Below, one piece after another: positions 1-18,069 of a stretch of DNA of 64,000 nt. The DNA comes from Azospirillum ramasamyi (lineage in GTDB: Bacteria > Pseudomonadota > Alphaproteobacteria > Azospirillales > Azospirillaceae). The stretch lies in NCBI RefSeq assembly GCF_003233655.1, contig NZ_CP029834.1:248001-312000 (forward strand), written 5' to 3'. A program made the translations under genes and the position numbers. The stretch's first letter is position 1; the number at the start of each line of letters is the position of its first letter. The notes below the pieces were generated by a model. The model ran no database searches and was not told the origin of the DNA. It saw only the letters and a list, made by a program, of their open reading frames with translations.

Positions 1-8
1 AACGCCAC

Positions 9-1904
9 ATGGTCCCCAGATTGCCTGAACAACCGATGTGGGCCCTGGATGTCCTGGGGGCGCTGGATGCAGGGATCCTGCTTCTCGACCGCCATTGCCG
101 GGTTCTGTACTGGAACGGCTGGATGGAGCAGGCCTCCACCCTGACCGCCCGGGAGATTCTCGGGCATGACCTGTTCGACGCGCTGCCGAACCTGCGCGAA
201 TCGCGCCTGCACATCGCGGTGCGCGACACGCTGGCGACCGGGGCGCCCGGCGTGCTGTCCCACACGCTGAACCCGATGCTGTTCCCGCTGCGCCTGCCGG
301 ACGGGCGGCGGATGGTCCACAATGTCGTGATCCGTCCGCTGCCGTCCCACGCCCAGATGGCCGGAGGAATGGCTGGGGGGGAGGCGCGCTGCCTGATCCA
401 GGTGACCGACGTCACCGCCTCGGTCAACCGCGAGCGGGTCCTGCGCGAACAGCGCGACGCCCGCCACCGCGCCATCGTCGACACCGCGCCAGACGCCATC
501 GTCACCACCGACACCCGCGGCATGGTGCAGTGGATGAACGGCGCCGCGATCCGCCAGTTCGACTATCGGCCGGAGGAACTGATCGGGCAGAGCGTGGCTG
601 TGCTGCTGGGCGACGATGCGCCGGACTGGATCGCCATGGCCGAGCACAGCGGACCTGGCAGCGCCGGCAGCCTCGACGCCGCGACCCAGCCGGTGGAGCT
701 GTCCGGCCGGCGCCGCGACGGCAGCCACATCGACCTGGAACTGTCGCTGGCGCGCTGGGAATCGGAAGGGCGCAGCTTCATCACCGGCATCCTGCGCGAC
801 ATCACCGAGCGCCGCCGCACCCGCGAGGAGCTGCGGGCCAGCGCGCTCGCCATGCGGCAGCTGGCCGAGCAGACCAAGGCGACGCTGGACGCGCTGCCCG
901 CCTTCATCGCCGTGCTCGACCGCTCCGGCCGCATCGTCTCGGCCAACCGCGCCTGGGCCGAGGCCGGACCGGAGACCACCTTCCTCGGCCAGGGCTGCAT
1001 CGTCGGCGACGATTACATCGACCATTGCGGCAAGGGCCAGACCGCCGACCCGCGGGCGGACGATGTGATGCAGGGCTTGCGCAAGCTGCTGAGGGACGGC
1101 GGGCCGCCGGTGTCGGCGGAATATGTCACCGCAAACCAGCACTGGTTCCGCTGCCTTGCCGCCCCCATGCCGGCCGGCCCCTTCGGCGGCGCGGTGCTGA
1201 TGCACATCGACGTGACGGAGATCAAGTCGATGGAGGCGGCGCTGCGCAAGCTGGTCGGACAGAAATCGACCCTGCTGCGCGAGGTCAACCACCGCGTCAA
1301 GAACAGCCTGCAGCTGGTGTCCAGCCTCCTGACCCTGCAGACCCTCAGCTTGCCGGACGAGGGGGTGCGGGTCCATTTCCAGGACGCCCGCAGCCGCATC
1401 GAGGCGATCGCCCGCGTCCACAACCGGCTCTATCAGGCCGACCAGTTCCAGACCATCGAGTTCGGCACCTACCTGAACGAACTGTGCGAGGATCTGGCGC
1501 GCGCCTCGGGCGGCGAGAGCATGTGCGACATCGTCGTCCGGTCCGAGGTGATCGACCTGCCGATCGACCACGCCGCACCGCTGGGACTGATCGCGAACGA
1601 ACTGATCACCAACGCGGTGAAGCATCGCGGGGGCGGGCCGGCACTGGTGACGGTGACCTTCCGGCGCGCGGGCGACGATCTGTCCCTGACCGTATCGGAC
1701 CGCGGTCCCGGCCTGCCGCCCAACTTCGACATCCGCAAGAGCCGCAGCCTGGGCATGCGCCTGATCTCCAGCCTCGCCGGGCAGATCCGGGCCAGCGTGG
1801 ACATCGACACCACGCCGCAGGGGACCACCTTCCGGATCGATCTTCCGGTGCCTGACGCGGTGCCGCTGTTGGAGCCTTCCTCCGCCGAGGAGATCGATGG
1901 ATGA
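9..1904 (+). CDS. PAS-domain sensor histidine kinase, HWE/HisKA_2 type
   Basis: This is a cytoplasmic sensor kinase of 631 residues with no clear membrane segment. It has three PAS-like segments at about residues 10-125, 150-265 and 285-400, then a HisKA_2-type dimerisation and phosphoacceptor helix. The H-box reads REVNHRVKNSL, with His428 as the predicted phosphorylation site. A C-terminal HATPase follows, with an N-box (NELITNAVKH), a GPGLP motif and a GLGMRLI segment. The HWE/HisKA_2 family usually signals to single-domain or atypical response regulators, and the next gene, overlapping by four bases, is exactly that. Few bases precede the ATG and no ribosome site is visible, so the true start could lie outside the window. 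The sensed ligand cannot be read from the sequence. Confidence 0.9.
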   Translation: MVPRLPEQPMWALDVLGALDAGILLLDRHCRVLYWNGWMEQASTLTAREILGHDLFDALPNLRESRLHIAVRDTLATGAPGVLSHTLNPMLFPLRLPDGRRMVHNVVIRPLPSHAQMAGGMAGGEARCLIQVTDVTASVNRERVLREQRDARHRAIVDTAPDAIVTTDTRGMVQWMNGAAIRQFDYRPEELIGQSVAVLLGDDAPDWIAMAEHSGPGSAGSLDAATQPVELSGRRRDGSHIDLELSLARWESEGRSFITGILRDITERRRTREELRASALAMRQLAEQTKATLDALPAFIAVLDRSGRIVSANRAWAEAGPETTFLGQGCIVGDDYIDHCGKGQTADPRADDVMQGLRKLLRDGGPPVSAEYVTANQHWFRCLAAPMPAGPFGGAVLMHIDVTEIKSMEAALRKLVGQKSTLLREVNHRVKNSLQLVSSLLTLQTLSLPDEGVRVHFQDARSRIEAIARVHNRLYQADQFQTIEFGTYLNELCEDLARASGGESMCDIVVRSEVIDLPIDHAAPLGLIANELITNAVKHRGGGPALVTVTFRRAGDDLSLTVSDRGPGLPPNFDIRKSRSLGMRLISSLAGQIRASVDIDTTPQGTTFRIDLPVPDAVPLLEPSSAEEIDG

Positions 1905-2302
1905 AGATCCTGCTGGTGGAGGACGAGGTGCTGATCGCGCTGGAACAGCAGCTTTACCTTGAATCCGTCGGCCACAGCGTCATCGGCCCCGCCGTCACCG
2001 CGATGGAGGCCGTGGAGATGGCCGAGGCCGACGGGCCGGACCTGGCGCTGGTCGACGTGCATCTAGGCATGGGAACCAACGGCATAGACGCCGCGCGCAG
2101 CCTGAACGCGCTCGGCGTGCCCTGCCTGTTCATCACCTCGTTCCGCGACGAGTTGAAGAAGGACGGCCCGCTCGCCGGCATCGGCTGCCTGCCCAAGCCC
2201 TTCACCGAAAGCGGCCTCCTCGCCGCCGTCGACGTCGCCCGCGCGATCCTGGCGGGGGAGACGCCGCGCAACGTCCCGCAGACGATGGAGTTGTTCGTGT
2301 GA
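1901..2302 (+). CDS. single-domain response regulator (REC only)
   Basis: This 133-aa receiver protein has no output domain. The acidic pocket (LLVEDE, residues 4-9), phosphoacceptor Asp52 (LALVDVHLG), Thr79 (FITS) and Lys99 (CLPKPF) are all present, so it should be phosphorylatable. Its ATG overlaps the kinase stop codon in an ATGA junction, so the pair is translationally coupled and is a cognate two-component system. REC-only proteins of this type in Alphaproteobacteria often act as phosphate sinks or in protein-protein signalling; which applies here cannot be told. Confidence 0.9.
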   Translation: MKILLVEDEVLIALEQQLYLESVGHSVIGPAVTAMEAVEMAEADGPDLALVDVHLGMGTNGIDAARSLNALGVPCLFITSFRDELKKDGPLAGIGCLPKPFTESGLLAAVDVARAILAGETPRNVPQTMELFV

Positions 2303-2352
2303 AGGAAAGGGGCGGAGAAGCCTTTCCAAATCGCACCGCGACACTTGGGAGT

Positions 2353-2482
2353 CGTGCGGAATTCCGGTGGGGATGACGGACATGTCGGGGAGGTCCGGTT
2401 CGCGCTTGGGCGGCGCGGTTCGACCTTTCCGGCATGATGCCGGCTATGGCCCGCCAGCCACCCCGACGGGGTCTGCCGCTGA
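2353..2482 (+). repeat. left arm of ~130-bp inverted repeat
   Basis: This segment is about 90% identical by eye, as reverse complement, to 3627-3758. Matching blocks include the outer edge CGTGCGGAATTCCGGTGGGG and an inner CCGCCAGCCACCCCG. The arms differ by about a dozen substitutions and a 3-nt indel. It is G+C-rich, unlike the gene it encloses. Both strands are open in some frames, but nothing resembles a known protein. It may be one copy of a genome-wide dispersed element. Confidence 0.85.
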
Positions 2483-2730
2483 GGCGGCCGTCAAGCAGGC
2501 TCCAGGACAGATGGAGACGGGGGCTTGATCGCGATTCGATTCGGATCGGTTATGCCTCTTGAACACTGCATTCCTTTGCGCTGATACTGCGCTCGAATGG
2601 TTTCAGCCGAGATCGCCTTGTCATAAGACATCCGTCACCTTGGTGATTGAAGTACGGACGTCGCAGTGCCGCACGTCGCCGATGCTGGGGTGTGGGCAAT
2701 AGGCGATTTTACGTTCCATAAGAGGAATGA
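2483..2730. other. leader region upstream of the WcbI-like gene
   Basis: About 250 bases lie between the left repeat arm and the AT-rich gene. The region contains a short dyad (TCACC-TT-GGTGA at 2635-2646). No open frame resembles a protein. Base composition drops toward the gene start, so the foreign segment probably begins within this stretch. Confidence 0.5.
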
Positions 2731-3618
2731 ATGTTGAATTTGCTGGTTTATGCGAACTGCCAAGGTTCAATGGTGGAGAAATTTGTCGTCCCGGAAATAT
2801 CCAAGCATGTAGTGGTATCTGCAGTTCATATCGTAAATTATGAAGCGATCAAGTTAGGATATGGCTCTGTTGGTGCAGCAGATCTTCCTGAGCACTATAG
2901 CCGCATAATAAGTGATGCCGACATCATAGTTTATCAAAATTTGTCGGAAAATCAAGGCGTTCTATCCACGAGCGGAAGGATTGCCAATTCCTTTATGACG
3001 AAAGCGAAAAAGGATTCCCTGAAAATATCGTTTCCTTATCTAAACAATAATGCGATTTGGCCGACATATATTGAAGAAAGGACTAAGGGGATATCTTTTA
3101 AAACGGATCCCCATATAGTGGAGATGGCCCGCTCGGCGCGCTCAGAGGATGACCTAATAAAGAAATACATGAATGGCGATATGTATTTCAATTTTTCTGG
3201 ACGGTTTACAGATTTTGTCAATGAACTTGAGAAAATAGAGCAGGAATGCGATGTAAAAATTTCTAATTTCATTAAAGATAACATAGCAAAAAAGCGTCTG
3301 TTCTTAACTCACAATCACCCAACTTCGGCAGTGATGAGTGAAATGGCACGGCAGATTATCCATATAATATCCTCAAATATTGGGTTTGAATTTGACCAGG
3401 AAGAGTTCTTGCGTACTCAGTCATTTTCTCCTGAAAACATATGCAAGCTTCCAGGGTACTACCCAATCGATTTTTATTCCGTCCGTCATTATAATTTCGA
3501 ATTTGCACAAAAACAAGATGTGGCAGCGCCAAGCTATTACAAATCGCACATGACGGCACTGTACAATCTTGTCAGGGGACTGCCAGCAGAGGTGCTCTTT
3601 TTCTCAGACTCCGCCTGA
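2731..3618 (+). CDS. WcbI-like polysaccharide biosynthesis protein, AT-rich
   Basis: The 295-aa product begins with a short hydrophobic strand and an NCQGS motif. Further on it has YQNLSENQG and a FPYLNNNAIWP segment. This layout (NCQ near the N-terminus, then a YQ..N and a FPy....P patch) matches the WcbI family of capsule/polysaccharide biosynthesis proteins, thought to be acetyltransferase-like. Residues after about 120 are family-poor. Start: AGAGGA lies five bases before the ATG. Base composition and codon use are strikingly AT-rich (AAA, ATA, TTT frequent) compared with everything around it, and the gene sits inside a pair of inverted repeats, so recent horizontal acquisition is likely. 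The acceptor glycan is unknown; no other polysaccharide genes lie nearby. Confidence 0.65.
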   Translation: MLNLLVYANCQGSMVEKFVVPEISKHVVVSAVHIVNYEAIKLGYGSVGAADLPEHYSRIISDADIIVYQNLSENQGVLSTSGRIANSFMTKAKKDSLKISFPYLNNNAIWPTYIEERTKGISFKTDPHIVEMARSARSEDDLIKKYMNGDMYFNFSGRFTDFVNELEKIEQECDVKISNFIKDNIAKKRLFLTHNHPTSAVMSEMARQIIHIISSNIGFEFDQEEFLRTQSFSPENICKLPGYYPIDFYSVRHYNFEFAQKQDVAAPSYYKSHMTALYNLVRGLPAEVLFFSDSA

Positions 3619-3626
3619 CGGTCGTA

Positions 3627-3758
3627 TCAGCGGGAGCCCCGCCGGGGTGGCTGGCGGACCACCGTAGCCGGAATCATGCCGGAGAGGTCGATCCGCGCCG
3701 CCCAGGCGCGAACCGGACCTTCCCGACATGTCCGTCATCCCCACCGGAATTCCGCACG
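3627..3758 (-). repeat. right arm of ~130-bp inverted repeat
   Basis: Reverse complement of 2353-2482 at about 90% identity by eye. It begins only nine bases after the stop codon of the AT-rich gene, so the cassette is tightly bounded on this side. The sharp change in base composition coincides with the repeat edge. Confidence 0.85.
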
Positions 3759-3880
3759 CCCCCGTTGCGCCATACCGGCTCCGTTGCCGCTTGCTGCTCG
3801 AACTGGCGGCGGTAGAGACCACCCAAGACAGCCCTCCCTCCCAAGGAAGAGAGGGGGAATGTGGGGTGTACCCTTTGCTG

Positions 3881-5992
3881 TCAGCGACCCTTCAGGTTCG
3901 TCTGGCGCGGCTTCATGCCTGAAGGCTTCGGCGCAGCGGAATTGCCTCCAGGCGCCTTGCCGACCGGCGGCACCACCCGCCGCCCCTGACCGGCCTGCTG
4001 GGTGAGGAAGGTCTTGCCTTTCGGTCCCTTGTCCCGCGGCTTGGCGGTGGCGCCGACCGGCTGCCAGGCCGGGATCAGATGCTCCTCGCCCGGTCCGATC
4101 AGGTCCTCGCGGCCCATGCGCTTCAGCGCCTCGCGCAGGATCGGCCAGTTCTCCGGGTCGTGGTAGCGCAGGAAGGCCTTGTGCAGGCGGCGCTGCTTCA
4201 ACCCCTTCGCCGACGACACCACCTCCGACCCGACACGGCGCACCGGGCGCAGCGGATTGCGCTCGCTGTGGTACATGGCGGTCGCAAGCGACATCGGCGA
4301 GGGCAGGAAGGTCTGCACCTGATCCGCCTTGAAGCCGTTCCGCTTCAGCCACAGCGCGAGGTTCATCATGTCCTCGTCGGTGGTGCCGGGGTGGGCGGCG
4401 ATGAAGTAGGGGATCAGGTAGAGCTTCTTGCCCGCCTCCTTCGCCGCCTTGTCGAACATCCGCTTGAATTCGTCATAGGCGCCCATGCCGGGCTTCATCA
4501 TCTTCGCCAGCGGACCCGGCTCGGTGTGTTCCGGCGCGATCTTCAGGTAGCCGCCGACATGGTGCGTCACCAGCTCCTTGACGTATTCCGGGTTGCGGAC
4601 GGCAAGGTCGTAGCGCAGGCCGGATGCGATGTGGATCTTCTTCACCCCCGGCACCGCGCGGGCCTTGCGGTAGAGCTGCACCAGCGACGAGTGGTCGGTG
4701 TTCAGGTTCTTGCAGATGTCCGGGAAGACGCAGGACGGGCGCCGGCAGACCGATTCCGTCTCCTTGTCCTTGCAGGCGAGGCGGTACATGTTGGCGGTCG
4801 GCCCGCCCATGTCGGAGATGACGCCGGTGAAGCCCTTGGTCTTGTCGCGGATATGCTCGATCTCGCGCAGGATGGAGCCTTCCGACCGGCTCTGGATGAT
4901 GCGCCCCTCATGCTCGGTGATCGAGCAGAAGGAACAGCCGCCGAAGCAACCCCGCATGATGTTGACGGAGAAGCGGATCATCTCCCAGGCCGGAATGCGC
5001 GCGTCGCCATAGGACGGATGCGGCGCCCGCGCATAGGGCAGGTCGTAGACGCCGTCCATCTCGTTGGTTTCCAGCGGGATCGGCGGCGGGTTCAGCCACA
5101 CGTCGCGGTCGCCGTGGCGCTGGACCAGCGCGCGGGCGTTGCCGGGATTGCTCTCCTGGTGCAGCACGCGGCTGGCATGGGCGTAGAGCACCTTGTCGGC
5201 CGTCACCTGCTCGTAGCTGGGCAGGCGCACCACCATGCGGTCGGCGCCGGCGGCGCGCGGCGACACCGTGGCCGACGGATCGTCGATGGAGCTGCTGTCG
5301 ACCACCGTCCAGCCCTCCGGCAAGGAGGAGCGCATGATGGCGGTGCCGCGGATGTCGGTCATCGCCTTGGGCGATTCCCCCTTCAGCGCACGCTGGGCGA
5401 TCTCGATGATGGCGCGTTCGGCGTTGCCGTAGACCAGCATGTCGGCCTTGGAATCAACCAGGACGGAGCGGCGGATCTTCTCGCTCCAATGGTCGTACTG
5501 GGCGATGCGGCGCAAGGACGCCTCGATGCCGCCCAGCACGATGGGCACGTCCTTGAAGGCTTCGCGGCAGCGCTGGGAATAAACGATGACGGCGCGGTCC
5601 GGCCGCTTGCCGCCCTCGTCGTTCGGCGTGTAGCTGTCGTTGTGGCGCAGGCGGCGGTCGGCCGTGTAGTGGTTGACCATCGAATCCATGTTGCCGCCGG
5701 TCACGCCCCAGAACAGCCGCGGCTTGCCCAGGATCTTGAACGGCTCCGCACTGCTCCAGTCCGGCTGGGCGATGATGCCGACGCGCAGGCCCTGCGATTC
5801 CAGCAGCCGGCCGATGATCGCCATGCCGAAGCTGGGATGGTCGACATAGGCGTCGCCGGTGACGACGATGACGTCGCACTGGTCCCAGCCCAGCCGGTCC
5901 ATCTCCGCACGCGACATCGGCAGGAAGGGTGCGGCCTTGGGGCGCACGCTCCGGTCCGGGCGTTGGGCGAACAGGTTGGGGGCCGCGAGCAT
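3881..5992 (-). CDS. YgiQ family radical SAM protein
   Basis: The 703-aa protein is collinear with the YgiQ/UPF0313 radical SAM family: an N-terminal cobalamin-binding-like region (about 25-300; [23 protein letters not shown]), then a radical SAM core with the 4Fe-4S ligands Cys349, Cys353 and Cys356 in [10 protein letters not shown]. The C-terminal third carries the family-typical QTFLPSPM and a basic, low-complexity tail from about residue 640. The reaction of YgiQ proteins is not established. It is expected to be cytoplasmic. It stands alone, about 220 bases downstream of the convergently read MFS gene's end, with its own promoter region to the right. Confidence 0.92.
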
Positions 5993-6182
5993 CGCGTTCT
6001 CCGGGTCTCAGCTGATAATGCGGATGGAAGCCGACAGTCATACCTTGTCGGCCCGCAAATTCCCACCGCTGATAACGCAGCGGAGCAATGGGATATTGTG
6101 CGGGTGGGTGCGCAGCTATGTGGGACGCCCCACAGCCGGTGCAAGGCTTGCCGGTGACGAAAGGGGCGGGGCAGGGGGCAGT

Positions 6183-6206
6183 GGGAAGGGAAGGGAAGGG
6201 AAGGGG
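6183..6206 (+). other. candidate G-quadruplex motif (five G-tracts, AA loops)
   Basis: Five runs of at least three G are separated by AA on the plus strand, within a 24-base stretch ending seven bases from the MFS stop codon. Two-base loops and G3 tracts meet the usual definition of a stable quadruplex. On the minus-strand transcript the same stretch is C-rich, so an effect would be at the DNA level or on any antisense RNA. Confidence 0.5.
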
Positions 6207-6212
6207 CGCCGG

Positions 6213-7460
6213 TCAGGCCGCGGCGCCGCCGGCCTCTTCCGGCCGGCCGTTGCGCCGCGCCACCACCCAGCCGATCACCGCACCCGCCAGCAGCACCACT
6301 CCCGCGCTGACGAAGGCCGTGCCCGGATGGGGGAACAGCGGGTAGGCCCCGACGGAGGCGGAATAGACCGCACCGAAGAAGAGCGGCGCCAGGATGCCGG
6401 CAACACTGGCCACGCTCATGTTGGCGCCCTGCAACTGGCCCTGTTCCGAGGGAGAGACCCGCTGTGTCATCAGTGACTGGATGGTCGGCATCGCCAGGCC
6501 CCACAGCGCGTTCGGCAGGATGGCCAGCACGAACCAGCCGCCGTCCGGCGCCAGCCCCATGCAGGTCAGCCCGCCGGCCCCGCAGAACAGGCCGACCACC
6601 ATCGTGCCACGGTCGCCCAGCCACTTCACCATGCGCGACACGACCAGCCCCTGCACCACCATGTCCAGCGCGCCGACCACCGCCAGCAGAAGCCCGACGT
6701 CCCAGGCGCTCCAACCGAAGCGATGCGAGGCATAGAGCACGAAGACCGCGGGAAAGACATTGTGGGAGAAATGCAGCATGAAATTGACCAGGGCCAGCCC
6801 CGACAGCTCGGAGTGGGACCGCAGCAGGCGCAGCGCGCCGAACGGATTGGCCCGGCGCCAGGAGAAGGCCATCCGGTTTTCCGGCGCCAGCGATTCCGGC
6901 AGCACCGCCAGACCATAGAGGAAGGCCAACCCGCTGAGCGCCCCGGCCGCCCAGAAGGGGGCGCGCGGCGACACCTCTCCCAACAAGCCGCCGAGGAGCG
7001 GGCCGGCAATGAAGCCGGCGCTGAACGCGGCGCCGATCAGGCCATAGGCCCGCGCCCGCTGCTCCGGCGGCGTCACGTCAGCCATATAGGCGAACACCGT
7101 GGTGAAGCTTGAGGAGGTGATGCCGGCGATCGCCCGGCCGACCACCAGCCACCACAGGTTCGGCGCCACCGCGATCAGCACATAATCCACCGCCAGCCCC
7201 AGGGCCGACAGCAGGATCACCGGCCGCCGCCCGAAACGGTCCGACAGCGAACCGATCACGGGAGAGCAGAAGAACTGCATCAGAGCCCACAGCGCCACCA
7301 GCGCGCCGTTGATGGTGCCCGCCTGCGCGCTTGGCCCGACGAATTCCTCGATCAGCGCCGGCAGCACCGGAATGACGATGCCCATCGCGACGATGTCGAG
7401 CGCTGCGGTGACCAGAATGAAGGCGATCGCGGCCTTGCGCGGCCGAAGAACGGAAGACAT
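6213..7460 (-). CDS. MFS transporter, TetA/DHA1-like drug exporter family
   Basis: A 415-aa, twelve-helix major facilitator protein of the DHA1 (TetA-like) branch. The loop 2-3 motif A reads GSLSDRFGRRP, and the first helix has the ALDIVAMGIVIPVLP pattern typical of TetA-like exporters. The inner membrane is the expected location and drug/proton antiport the likely mechanism. The ATG at 7460 is preferred over an upstream in-frame start 57 bases earlier because the family N-terminus begins at MSSVLRPRK. The substrate cannot be inferred; the family contains many non-tetracycline transporters. It is divergent from the flavocytochrome gene. Confidence 0.85.
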   Translation of the reverse strand: MSSVLRPRKAAIAFILVTAALDIVAMGIVIPVLPALIEEFVGPSAQAGTINGALVALWALMQFFCSPVIGSLSDRFGRRPVILLSALGLAVDYVLIAVAPNLWWLVVGRAIAGITSSSFTTVFAYMADVTPPEQRARAYGLIGAAFSAGFIAGPLLGGLLGEVSPRAPFWAAGALSGLAFLYGLAVLPESLAPENRMAFSWRRANPFGALRLLRSHSELSGLALVNFMLHFSHNVFPAVFVLYASHRFGWSAWDVGLLLAVVGALDMVVQGLVVSRMVKWLGDRGTMVVGLFCGAGGLTCMGLAPDGGWFVLAILPNALWGLAMPTIQSLMTQRVSPSEQGQLQGANMSVASVAGILAPLFFGAVYSASVGAYPLFPHPGTAFVSAGVVLLAGAVIGWVVARRNGRPEEAGGAAA

Positions 7461-7786
7461 GGAGGAGCCTTGAGGAACTCGACGGATAAAGACGCCCGAA
7501 CCGGGCAGGGTACGCAATGCCGGCCAAACTGGCAGCCGGGCCGGGATCGCCCAGGCAAGCGGCGATCATAGACGGCACGAGCGCGGTTGTGAAGTGAATT
7601 ATTTCCGACCGCGGATGCTTTTGGGGAAGTGCGGATGACCGGTTTTCCCACCGCACTGTACGGGTTCCGAATCTGTTCCTCACGCGAATGGCTGCATTTC
7701 GGCGATTCGGCTTGCCGGTCCTCATCATTAGAAAAAACAATTATGCACTGCCGCCCGCCCGGCGGCGCAACGGGAGGACGCTCGCC
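7461..7786. promoter_or_regulatory. divergent intergenic region, MFS and flavocytochrome genes
   Basis: This 326-base region must hold the promoters of both flanking genes. It has an AT-rich patch near 7727-7745 and another near 7590-7610. No convincing Fur-type inverted repeat was found. No protein-like open frame. Confidence 0.4.
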
Positions 7787-9127
7787 ATGCAGAGGATCAA
7801 GCTTGCCTTTTGGGGCTTGCTGGCGCTGTTAACCGTGCTGTGGCTCGCCGCGGATGCCTCGGTGTTCCGTTGGACCGGCTATTTCCCGTTCCGCTCCGGC
7901 ATGATCCAGCACAGCGGCTTGATCGCCATCGGCTGCATGAGCGTCGCCATGATCCTGGCATTGCGTCCCCGCTGGCCGGAGAGGTGGTTCGGCGGCCTGG
8001 ACAAGATGTACCGTCTGCACAAGTGGTTGGGCATCGGCGCTCTCGTCTTTGCGGTCGGCCATTGGCTTTGGGCGCAGGGAACGAAATGGGCGGTGGGCTG
8101 GGGCTGGCTCGATCGGCCGCAGCGTGGCCCGCGCGCGGCGTTGGAGAACCCGGTCGCGCAGTCGCTGACGGAGCTTCGCGGCACGGCGGAAGCGATCGGC
8201 GAATGGGCGTTCTACGCCGCCTTGGTGCTGATCGCGATGGCGCTGATCAAGAGCTTCCCATACCGGCAGTTCTTCAAGCTGCATAAGCTGCTGGCGCTCA
8301 CCTATCTGGCGCTGGTCTTCCACACCGTCGTGCTCACGAAATTCGCTTACTGGAGCACGCCGGTTGGCTGGGTGCTGGCAATTCTGCTCGCAGGCGGCAC
8401 CTGGGCGGCCGTGGTGGCGCTGCTGGGCCGCGTCGGAGCCGACCGCCGGGTTCCGGGCAGCATCGGCAAGCTCCAGTATTATCCAGCCCTGCGCGTGCTC
8501 GAGGCCGAGGTCGACGTGCCGCGGGGATGGCCGGGCCATAAGGCGGGGCAGTTCGCCTTCGCCATGTCGGATGCCGCCGAGGGCGCGCATCCCTACACCA
8601 TCGCCTCGGCCTGGAACGAGGCCGAGCACCGCATCACCTTCGTGATCAAGGAACTTGGCGACCACACGCGGCGCCTGCGGGAGAAGCTGCTGCTCGGCCA
8701 GACGGTGACGGTCGAAGGGCCATACGGCTGCTTCACCTTCGACGACGACTGCCCCCAGCAGATTTGGGTAGGGGCGGGCATCGGCGTGACACCCTTCATC
8801 GCCCGCATGAAATATCTGGCGATGCAGGACGGACGGCTGCCGCAAACCATCCACTTCTTCCACACCACACACGACCATGACGAGAACGCGAGCGCCAAGC
8901 TGATGGCCGACGCGGCGGCGGCGGGCGTGCGCCTGCACATCCTGGTCGATGGCCGCGACGGTCGCCTGACCGGCGAGCGCATTCGCGCGGCGGTGCCGGA
9001 CTGGAGCAACGCCAGCATCTGGTTCTGCGGCCCGACCGGCTTCGGACAGGCGCTGCGGCAGGATTTCGCAGAGCAGGGACTGCCGGTGGAGCATCGCTTC
9101 CACCAGGAGCTTTTCGAGATGCGATGA
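7787..9127 (+). CDS. ferric reductase-like flavocytochrome oxidoreductase
   Basis: The 446-aa protein has an N-terminal ferric-reductase-type membrane domain of about six helices (residues 1-225), with histidines positioned to bind heme (for example HKWLGIGALVFAVGHWLW and HKLLALTYLALVFH). A cytosolic ferredoxin-NADP+ reductase module follows: the FAD-binding segment (KAGQFAFAM, HPYTIAS) around 255-300, the VEGPYGCF loop, and an NAD(P)-binding half (WVGAGIGVTPFI) from about 325. It would move electrons from NAD(P)H through FAD and heme across the inner membrane; the acceptor is unknown. GGGAGG at 7772 supports the ATG at 7787 over an upstream in-frame start. Confidence 0.85.
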   Translation: MQRIKLAFWGLLALLTVLWLAADASVFRWTGYFPFRSGMIQHSGLIAIGCMSVAMILALRPRWPERWFGGLDKMYRLHKWLGIGALVFAVGHWLWAQGTKWAVGWGWLDRPQRGPRAALENPVAQSLTELRGTAEAIGEWAFYAALVLIAMALIKSFPYRQFFKLHKLLALTYLALVFHTVVLTKFAYWSTPVGWVLAILLAGGTWAAVVALLGRVGADRRVPGSIGKLQYYPALRVLEAEVDVPRGWPGHKAGQFAFAMSDAAEGAHPYTIASAWNEAEHRITFVIKELGDHTRRLREKLLLGQTVTVEGPYGCFTFDDDCPQQIWVGAGIGVTPFIARMKYLAMQDGRLPQTIHFFHTTHDHDENASAKLMADAAAAGVRLHILVDGRDGRLTGERIRAAVPDWSNASIWFCGPTGFGQALRQDFAEQGLPVEHRFHQELFEMR

Positions 9128-17481: not shown

Positions 17482-18069
17482 ATGGCTCTTGCATTCGAGC
17501 GGTTTTCCAAGGAAGCGACAAGCATCAATGAGCGCCCACTGTTTTACCTATGGGGGGCGCAACTGGGATTTATCCTCCCGGATATCGTTTTTGTGACCTG
17601 CCTCGAACAATTCCAACAGGCGCCGTCAAAAGCGAAATCCCAGGCAATTTACGAATGGCTTCTTGATCCAGATACCAAGAAGGCCGCCCAATTCAACTGG
17701 GGATCAATGAATTTGCAATCCGATGGGACGAGCGGGCTCAGAAAAAAAATCGACTATATCAATGAAGCATCCAGATATTACATCAGCCGCAAGACTTGGG
17801 TGGGAAAGCTCAGGAACGAACGGCAGAGTCAGCTGGGCAACCACCCATCTTCCACCATGTACGATCTGATACTGAACTTTGCACTTATGAACATCGAAAC
17901 AGACAGCAGCTCCCTTCCGTTCAGGACATTCACTCCCGATATGGTGGATCGGTCGCAGGGCTACGTCATACAAGGGCTCAAGTCCCTGGAATTGCTGGAA
18001 AGGGATTTTCGGAAGGCCGGGTTCAACACGGCAAAGATGGGCTTTCGCCTGCCTTTCAAATTCAAGTGA
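17482..18069 (+). CDS. hypothetical protein of atypical composition
   Basis: A 195-aa protein that I do not recognise. It is soluble-looking, without signal peptide or convincing membrane helix, although residues 22-42 (LYLWGAQLGFILPDIVFVTC region) are hydrophobic. The C-terminus is basic (FRKAGFNTAKMGFRLPFKFK). Codon use includes many A/T-ending codons, and G+C is clearly below the neighbouring genes, which suggests transfer. The ribosome site is weak (GGGACGG about nine bases upstream). It is followed by a good intrinsic-terminator-like hairpin, so it seems to be a stand-alone transcription unit and not a chance frame. Confidence 0.7.
   Translation: MALAFERFSKEATSINERPLFYLWGAQLGFILPDIVFVTCLEQFQQAPSKAKSQAIYEWLLDPDTKKAAQFNWGSMNLQSDGTSGLRKKIDYINEASRYYISRKTWVGKLRNERQSQLGNHPSSTMYDLILNFALMNIETDSSSLPFRTFTPDMVDRSQGYVIQGLKSLELLERDFRKAGFNTAKMGFRLPFKFK

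Follow-up and report, generated by a model that had tools for sequence, protein, structure and literature searches.

The locus raises the question of how a single AT-rich gene came to lie between two inverted repeats in an Azospirillum genome of 6.3 Mb, and whether the arrangement can still move. We analyzed a 64-kb stretch of this genome (the window), and all coordinates are positions within it. A sequence-only reading had described a WcbI-type gene boxed by two repeats, and proposed that these are copies of a dispersed repeat or non-autonomous element and that the cassette may vary surface antigens. From left to right, the features of the locus are:

1901–2302, + strand: response-regulator gene, the conserved left border (open reading frame; 87–92% DNA identity and an equivalent position in the 13 closest relatives)
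2323–2502, + strand: left arm, a dead transposase 3′ end and right terminal repeat of the IS5-family element IS-B (nhmmer, shuffles, terminal repeat)
2545–2638, − strand: fragment of an ISAli1-like IS5-family element, with the transposase N-terminus (MSYDKAISAETIRAQYQRKGMQ...; nhmmer E=1.7e-14, ISAli1 positions 58–151)
2731–3618, + strand: WcbI-family gene, 295 aa, 41% GC (Pfam PF18588, PDB 4bqn profile, structure model)
3607–3757, − strand: right arm, an inverted dead IS-B transposase 3′ end and right terminal repeat (nhmmer, shuffles, terminal repeat)
3758–3824, − strand: relic of the last ~20 codons of an ABC transporter gene (aligns with the ABC C-terminus of G022, G032, G021, G024 and G036)
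3881–5992, − strand: ygiQ-like radical-SAM gene, the conserved right border (up to 98% amino acid identity in relatives)

The gene between the arms has 41% GC overall and a GC3 of 43% in surroundings of about 68%, and it is, as first described, a single AT-rich gene among neighbors (nearby 500-bp blocks) of 64–72%. Its assignment as WcbI-type also holds, with a PF18588 match of E=7.7e-18 and 65.3 bits (curated cut-off 29.2), a match to the PDB 4bqn profile with E=5e-12, and a predicted structure (pLDDT 85) for which the top solved structures are WcbI (E=1e-11, TM about 0.55). Cys10, within a YANCQG motif, and His196 are invariant across nine homologues and correspond to Cys14 and His201 of Burkholderia pseudomallei WcbI, the register of the His being that of the 4bqn profile alignment; in B. 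pseudomallei WcbI these residues hold the acetyl group of acetyl-CoA (PMC4104973). The open reading frame is apparently intact and the protein is probably still made and folded. It probably helps to modify a surface polysaccharide with acyl (acetyl) groups, a role that we infer from the family alone, since acetyltransferase activity is undemonstrated even in the type protein (PMC4104973). Only at its last five residues does the predicted structure drop below pLDDT 50. The right arm had been thought to start nine bases past the stop codon, but the homology begins at 3607, inside the last codons of the gene, and the closing GAC TCC GCC TGA is therefore IS-end sequence. A second AT-rich open reading frame is present in the window at 17482–18069 (+ strand; 195 aa, 500-bp block of 50% GC, no Pfam match), between GST-like and TrkA-like genes.

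The arms are by far the strongest inverted pair in window positions 1–8000, with 102 nt and a further 25 nt each at 92% complementarity; the runners-up in the same 8 kb are short, at 70–85%. They span about 2353–2502 and 3607–3757, and a full alignment of 2353–2496 with 3613–3758 is 89% identical, so that the pair originally placed at 2353–2482 and 3627–3758 is real but, at 89–92% identity, not ‘nearly identical’. There are two copies of the arm in the 6.3-Mb genome, both at the wcbI locus. BLAST of 44 congeners turned up no full copy, and there was no close copy beyond the home locus among 82 genomes of the order (this genome and 81 relatives), in per-genome searches that score a limited number of first-look candidates and that weak copies may escape. 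A 22-nt pattern from a stretch identical in both arms has no match in 84,980 genomes and viral contigs, and the matches of the arm to plasmids are at chance level. Short BLAST matches in G006, G007 and G017 fall within coding sequence and look like chance. Since the only two copies at close identity share one locus, the arms are not a recently active dispersed repeat, and the proposal of a dispersed or non-autonomous element gives way to one of IS5-family wreckage.

A covariance model built from the two arms and run on 45 genus genomes, including this one, has full-length diverged matches in 17 of them, own counted, with E values down to 1e-10 and the weakest near chance. When aligned and translated, the strong matches are the 3′ end of an IS5-family element, IS-B, intact copies of which are ~892 bp long and present in several Azospirillum relatives. 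The IS-B transposase gene has 277 codons, ending ...RRWVVERTFGWMTRWRRLVRDYEARIDVSGGMIQLAMASLLLRRVCH, and encodes a DDE transposase matching PF01609 and PF13340; the right terminal repeat is GAGCCCGTTTGACAACC, and the target duplications are 3 bp of the type TNA (TGA in L112 and L113, TAA in L118). A nucleotide HMM made from five IS-B copies and run with nhmmer over the 64-kb window has the arms as its only two significant matches: the left arm at 2323–2497 (+ strand; E=6e-14, 43.2 bits, IS positions 716–890 of 892) and the right arm at 3763–3616 (− strand; E=1.7e-6, 18.4 bits, IS positions 741–886), the best of 1000 dinucleotide shuffles of the arms scoring 2.8. The left fragment extends outward to about 2323, 30 nt past the part common to both arms. 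The two IS ends, at 2502 and 3607, point toward the gene, and agreement with the terminal repeat is confined to these inner ends (24 of 30 positions in the left arm and 19 of 30 in the right). The right end is flanked by TCA, which fits IS5-type TNA targeting, and the left by CAG, which does not.

What survives of the element is positions 716–892 on the left and about 741–892 on the right, not a complete copy with an intact transposase. In both arms the catalytic Glu codon of the VERTFGW motif is changed from GAG to GTG, and both have the same frame-disrupting indels, a deletion of 3 nt and an insertion of ~5 nt, so no working transposase can be read from them. The arms are degenerate 3′ ends of an IS5-family element, with the ends inward and the outer parts lost. 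The sequence-only reading found no transposase at the locus, which is correct for an intact one, although both arms are the dead 3′ end of a transposase gene and 2545–2638 is the 5′ end of another. This ISAli1-like relic, first noticed via plasmid matches, sits between the left arm and wcbI. The arms are about 62–66% identical to the intact IS-B copies found, and no intact source IS within 90% of them was found. A two-frame IS5-family element is present elsewhere in the genome in about 16 nearly identical copies (e.g. L145–L152), but these were rejected as the source, as the protein is only 33–35% identical and the arms are not matched.

The slot between the response-regulator and ygiQ genes has varied contents. 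In relatives it is occupied by an ABC transporter gene (602 codons), sometimes accompanied by an SDR gene, or by other genes, and neither wcbI nor either IS relic was found in the slot of the relatives compared. An insert-free site in relatives, which had been suggested as a check, is present in G021, G022, G024 and G032, where the spacer between the response-regulator and ABC genes has no insert. The 67 nt adjoining the right arm are the end of the ABC gene including its stop codon, and the alignment with G022 is gap-free; the genome has no close ABC orthologue elsewhere (best 37%). Because relatives have the ABC gene and here just its last ~20 codons are present, with the rest gone and no orthologue elsewhere, the slot turned over in this genome, losing the transporter and gaining a gene accompanied by IS debris. 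In G018 the slot (L049) contains a gene for a SMI1/KNR4 (SUKH)-like protein, matched over a 70-aa piece at a score short of the curated cut-off, and this protein and the neighboring open reading frames resemble polymorphic toxin immunity genes.

The explanation that we favor, with moderate confidence, is that a horizontally acquired gene flanked by IS copies was inserted long ago into a variable slot, and that the locus is what decay has left of this insertion, no longer mobile. The AT-rich WcbI-type gene would have come between two inverted copies of one IS5-family element with their right ends inward, and the gene and both copies would have arrived together. Later deletions would have cut away the outer portion of each IS copy and also the bulk of the transporter gene, and the arms may have stayed alike through gene conversion or a shared origin. 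In support of this explanation, the inner border of each arm coincides exactly with an IS end, the base composition of the gene marks it as foreign, and its only homologues in the genus are 36–39% identical or weaker. A passenger between two copies of one IS is also the layout of a composite transposon, but that class is not proved here, as the outer IS ends and a target duplication around the whole unit are missing, and the outer flanks are instead the response-regulator gene with its spacer and the ABC relic. The arm-gene-arm unit was found at this one locus only, with none at a second. Against the favored explanation, the arms end at nearly the same IS position (716 versus about 741–747), and the common decay together with these near-equal end points is not predicted by two independent intact IS copies without gene conversion; the shared decay points to one dead ancestor or to mutual conversion.

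The earlier proposal of a foreign gene between repeat copies thus survives in part, in that a WcbI-type gene was inserted and relatives lack the insert, but the repeat is not a non-autonomous element. The insertion is unable to move by its own transposase, and nothing indicates present mobility or antigenic switching. It had been argued that mobility would be unlikely if all relatives carried the gene at this place and the repeats occurred nowhere else, and here the outcome is mixed: the repeats are absent elsewhere at close identity, yet there are relatives without the gene.

We rank joint IS-mediated arrival first, with inverted duplication and separate insertions next and a mini-element behind those. 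In the first alternative, which is possible but unlikely, template switching or inverted duplication put a second, inverted copy of a single dead IS fragment on the opposite side of the gene, during or after insertion of the gene, and two full IS copies never flanked the gene. This would account for the dead catalytic codon and indels common to both arms, for the similar IS end positions, and for there being no further arm copy in the genome. However, the left fragment reaches about 25–30 nt deeper into the IS than the right, and the inner borders are exactly at the IS end in differing sequence contexts, whereas a simple duplication would not respect the IS end. Following this, and unlikely as well, are two independent IS insertions beside a foreign gene that was already resident, with no shared transposition. 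Both this genome and the genus at large are rich in IS5-family elements, the right IS sits at the gene's 3′ terminus and its TCA flank fits TNA, and the left is beside the ISAli1-like relic, but separate events are made less likely by one rare IS being there twice, in inverted orientation, with equal decay and 89% identity between the two sides.

It is very unlikely that the arms are a non-autonomous mini-element, of the MITE or mobile insertion cassette type, that was mobilized in trans together with a passenger. The ~150-bp arms with one true IS terminal repeat, the passenger gene and the lack of an intact transposase are all consistent with such an element, but the outer ends are internal IS sequence and not terminal repeats, and there are only two copies, at one locus, with none elsewhere at close identity and no target duplication. 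A mini-element would also be suggested by an outer truncation identical in the two arms, which L115 and L117 at first seemed to share; the left arm, however, reaches ~25–30 nt further into the IS. That the arms are a structured RNA or terminator selected at this place is extremely improbable, since although each arm can fold, the folding is weak (z = −1.35 and −2.24), there is no Rfam match or terminator-like site, and the arms are fully explained as transposase sequence.

Homologues of wcbI are present in other members of the genus, in A. melinis TMCY0552 (G022; 36% identity, 39% GC), in Azospirillum sp. B506 (G029; 39% over a fragment) and, more remotely, in G013, all at other, unrelated loci. 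The A. melinis homologue adjoins a truncated IS5-family transposase gene, and no inverted repeats were found around it. The B506 homologue is split over two contig ends (L127 1–441 and the end of L128), so it may be repeat-interrupted or the split a mere assembly gap. A broader suggestion is that lone, AT-rich genes of the WcbI type travel repeatedly as cargo of IS5-family elements in Azospirillum, with cases in this genome, A. melinis TMCY0552 and B506; each gene would move alone from one unrelated locus to another and would modify surface sugars. This is distinctly unlikely. WcbI homologues are also present on viral contigs, among them L141 (5001–5756) and L142 (5001–5750), where the surrounding runs of same-strand open reading frames resemble sugar- or sulfo-transferase genes by eye.

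The locus shows that a single surface-sugar gene can become fixed in a soil bacterium after the death of its IS vehicle, and that IS relics can underlie ‘anonymous’ inverted repeats flanking an unusual gene, when decay has put them beyond the reach of ordinary BLAST but not of profile searches. The slot between the response-regulator and ygiQ genes is a useful marker of gene turnover in Azospirillum.

Among known systems, the arms resemble the IS1031/IS427-like groups of the IS5 family (IS-B, and ISAli1 of Azospirillum) in the transposase 3′ end, the right terminal repeat and the TNA-type flank, and differ from intact elements in being 150–180 nt fragments without the catalytic Glu codon. Mobile insertion cassettes and MITEs similarly have a transposase-less passenger gene between inverted sequences, but here the outer ends are not terminal repeats and there are no copies elsewhere. 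Composite transposons (e.g. Tn6097 of Paracoccus, PMC3281130, for the class) share the two inverted copies of one IS around a passenger; the present locus is without outer IS ends, target duplication or active transposase, and has a single gene only. The gene product has the same fold family and equivalent Cys and His as B. pseudomallei WcbI (PDB 4bqn/4bqo, PMC4104973), but is only 17–18% identical to it, and the Azospirillum gene stands alone, outside any capsule cluster, with a C-terminal tail that is IS-derived. The locus is ordinary in kind and involves no new mechanism; its anatomy is clear, and the identity of its repeats is corrected.
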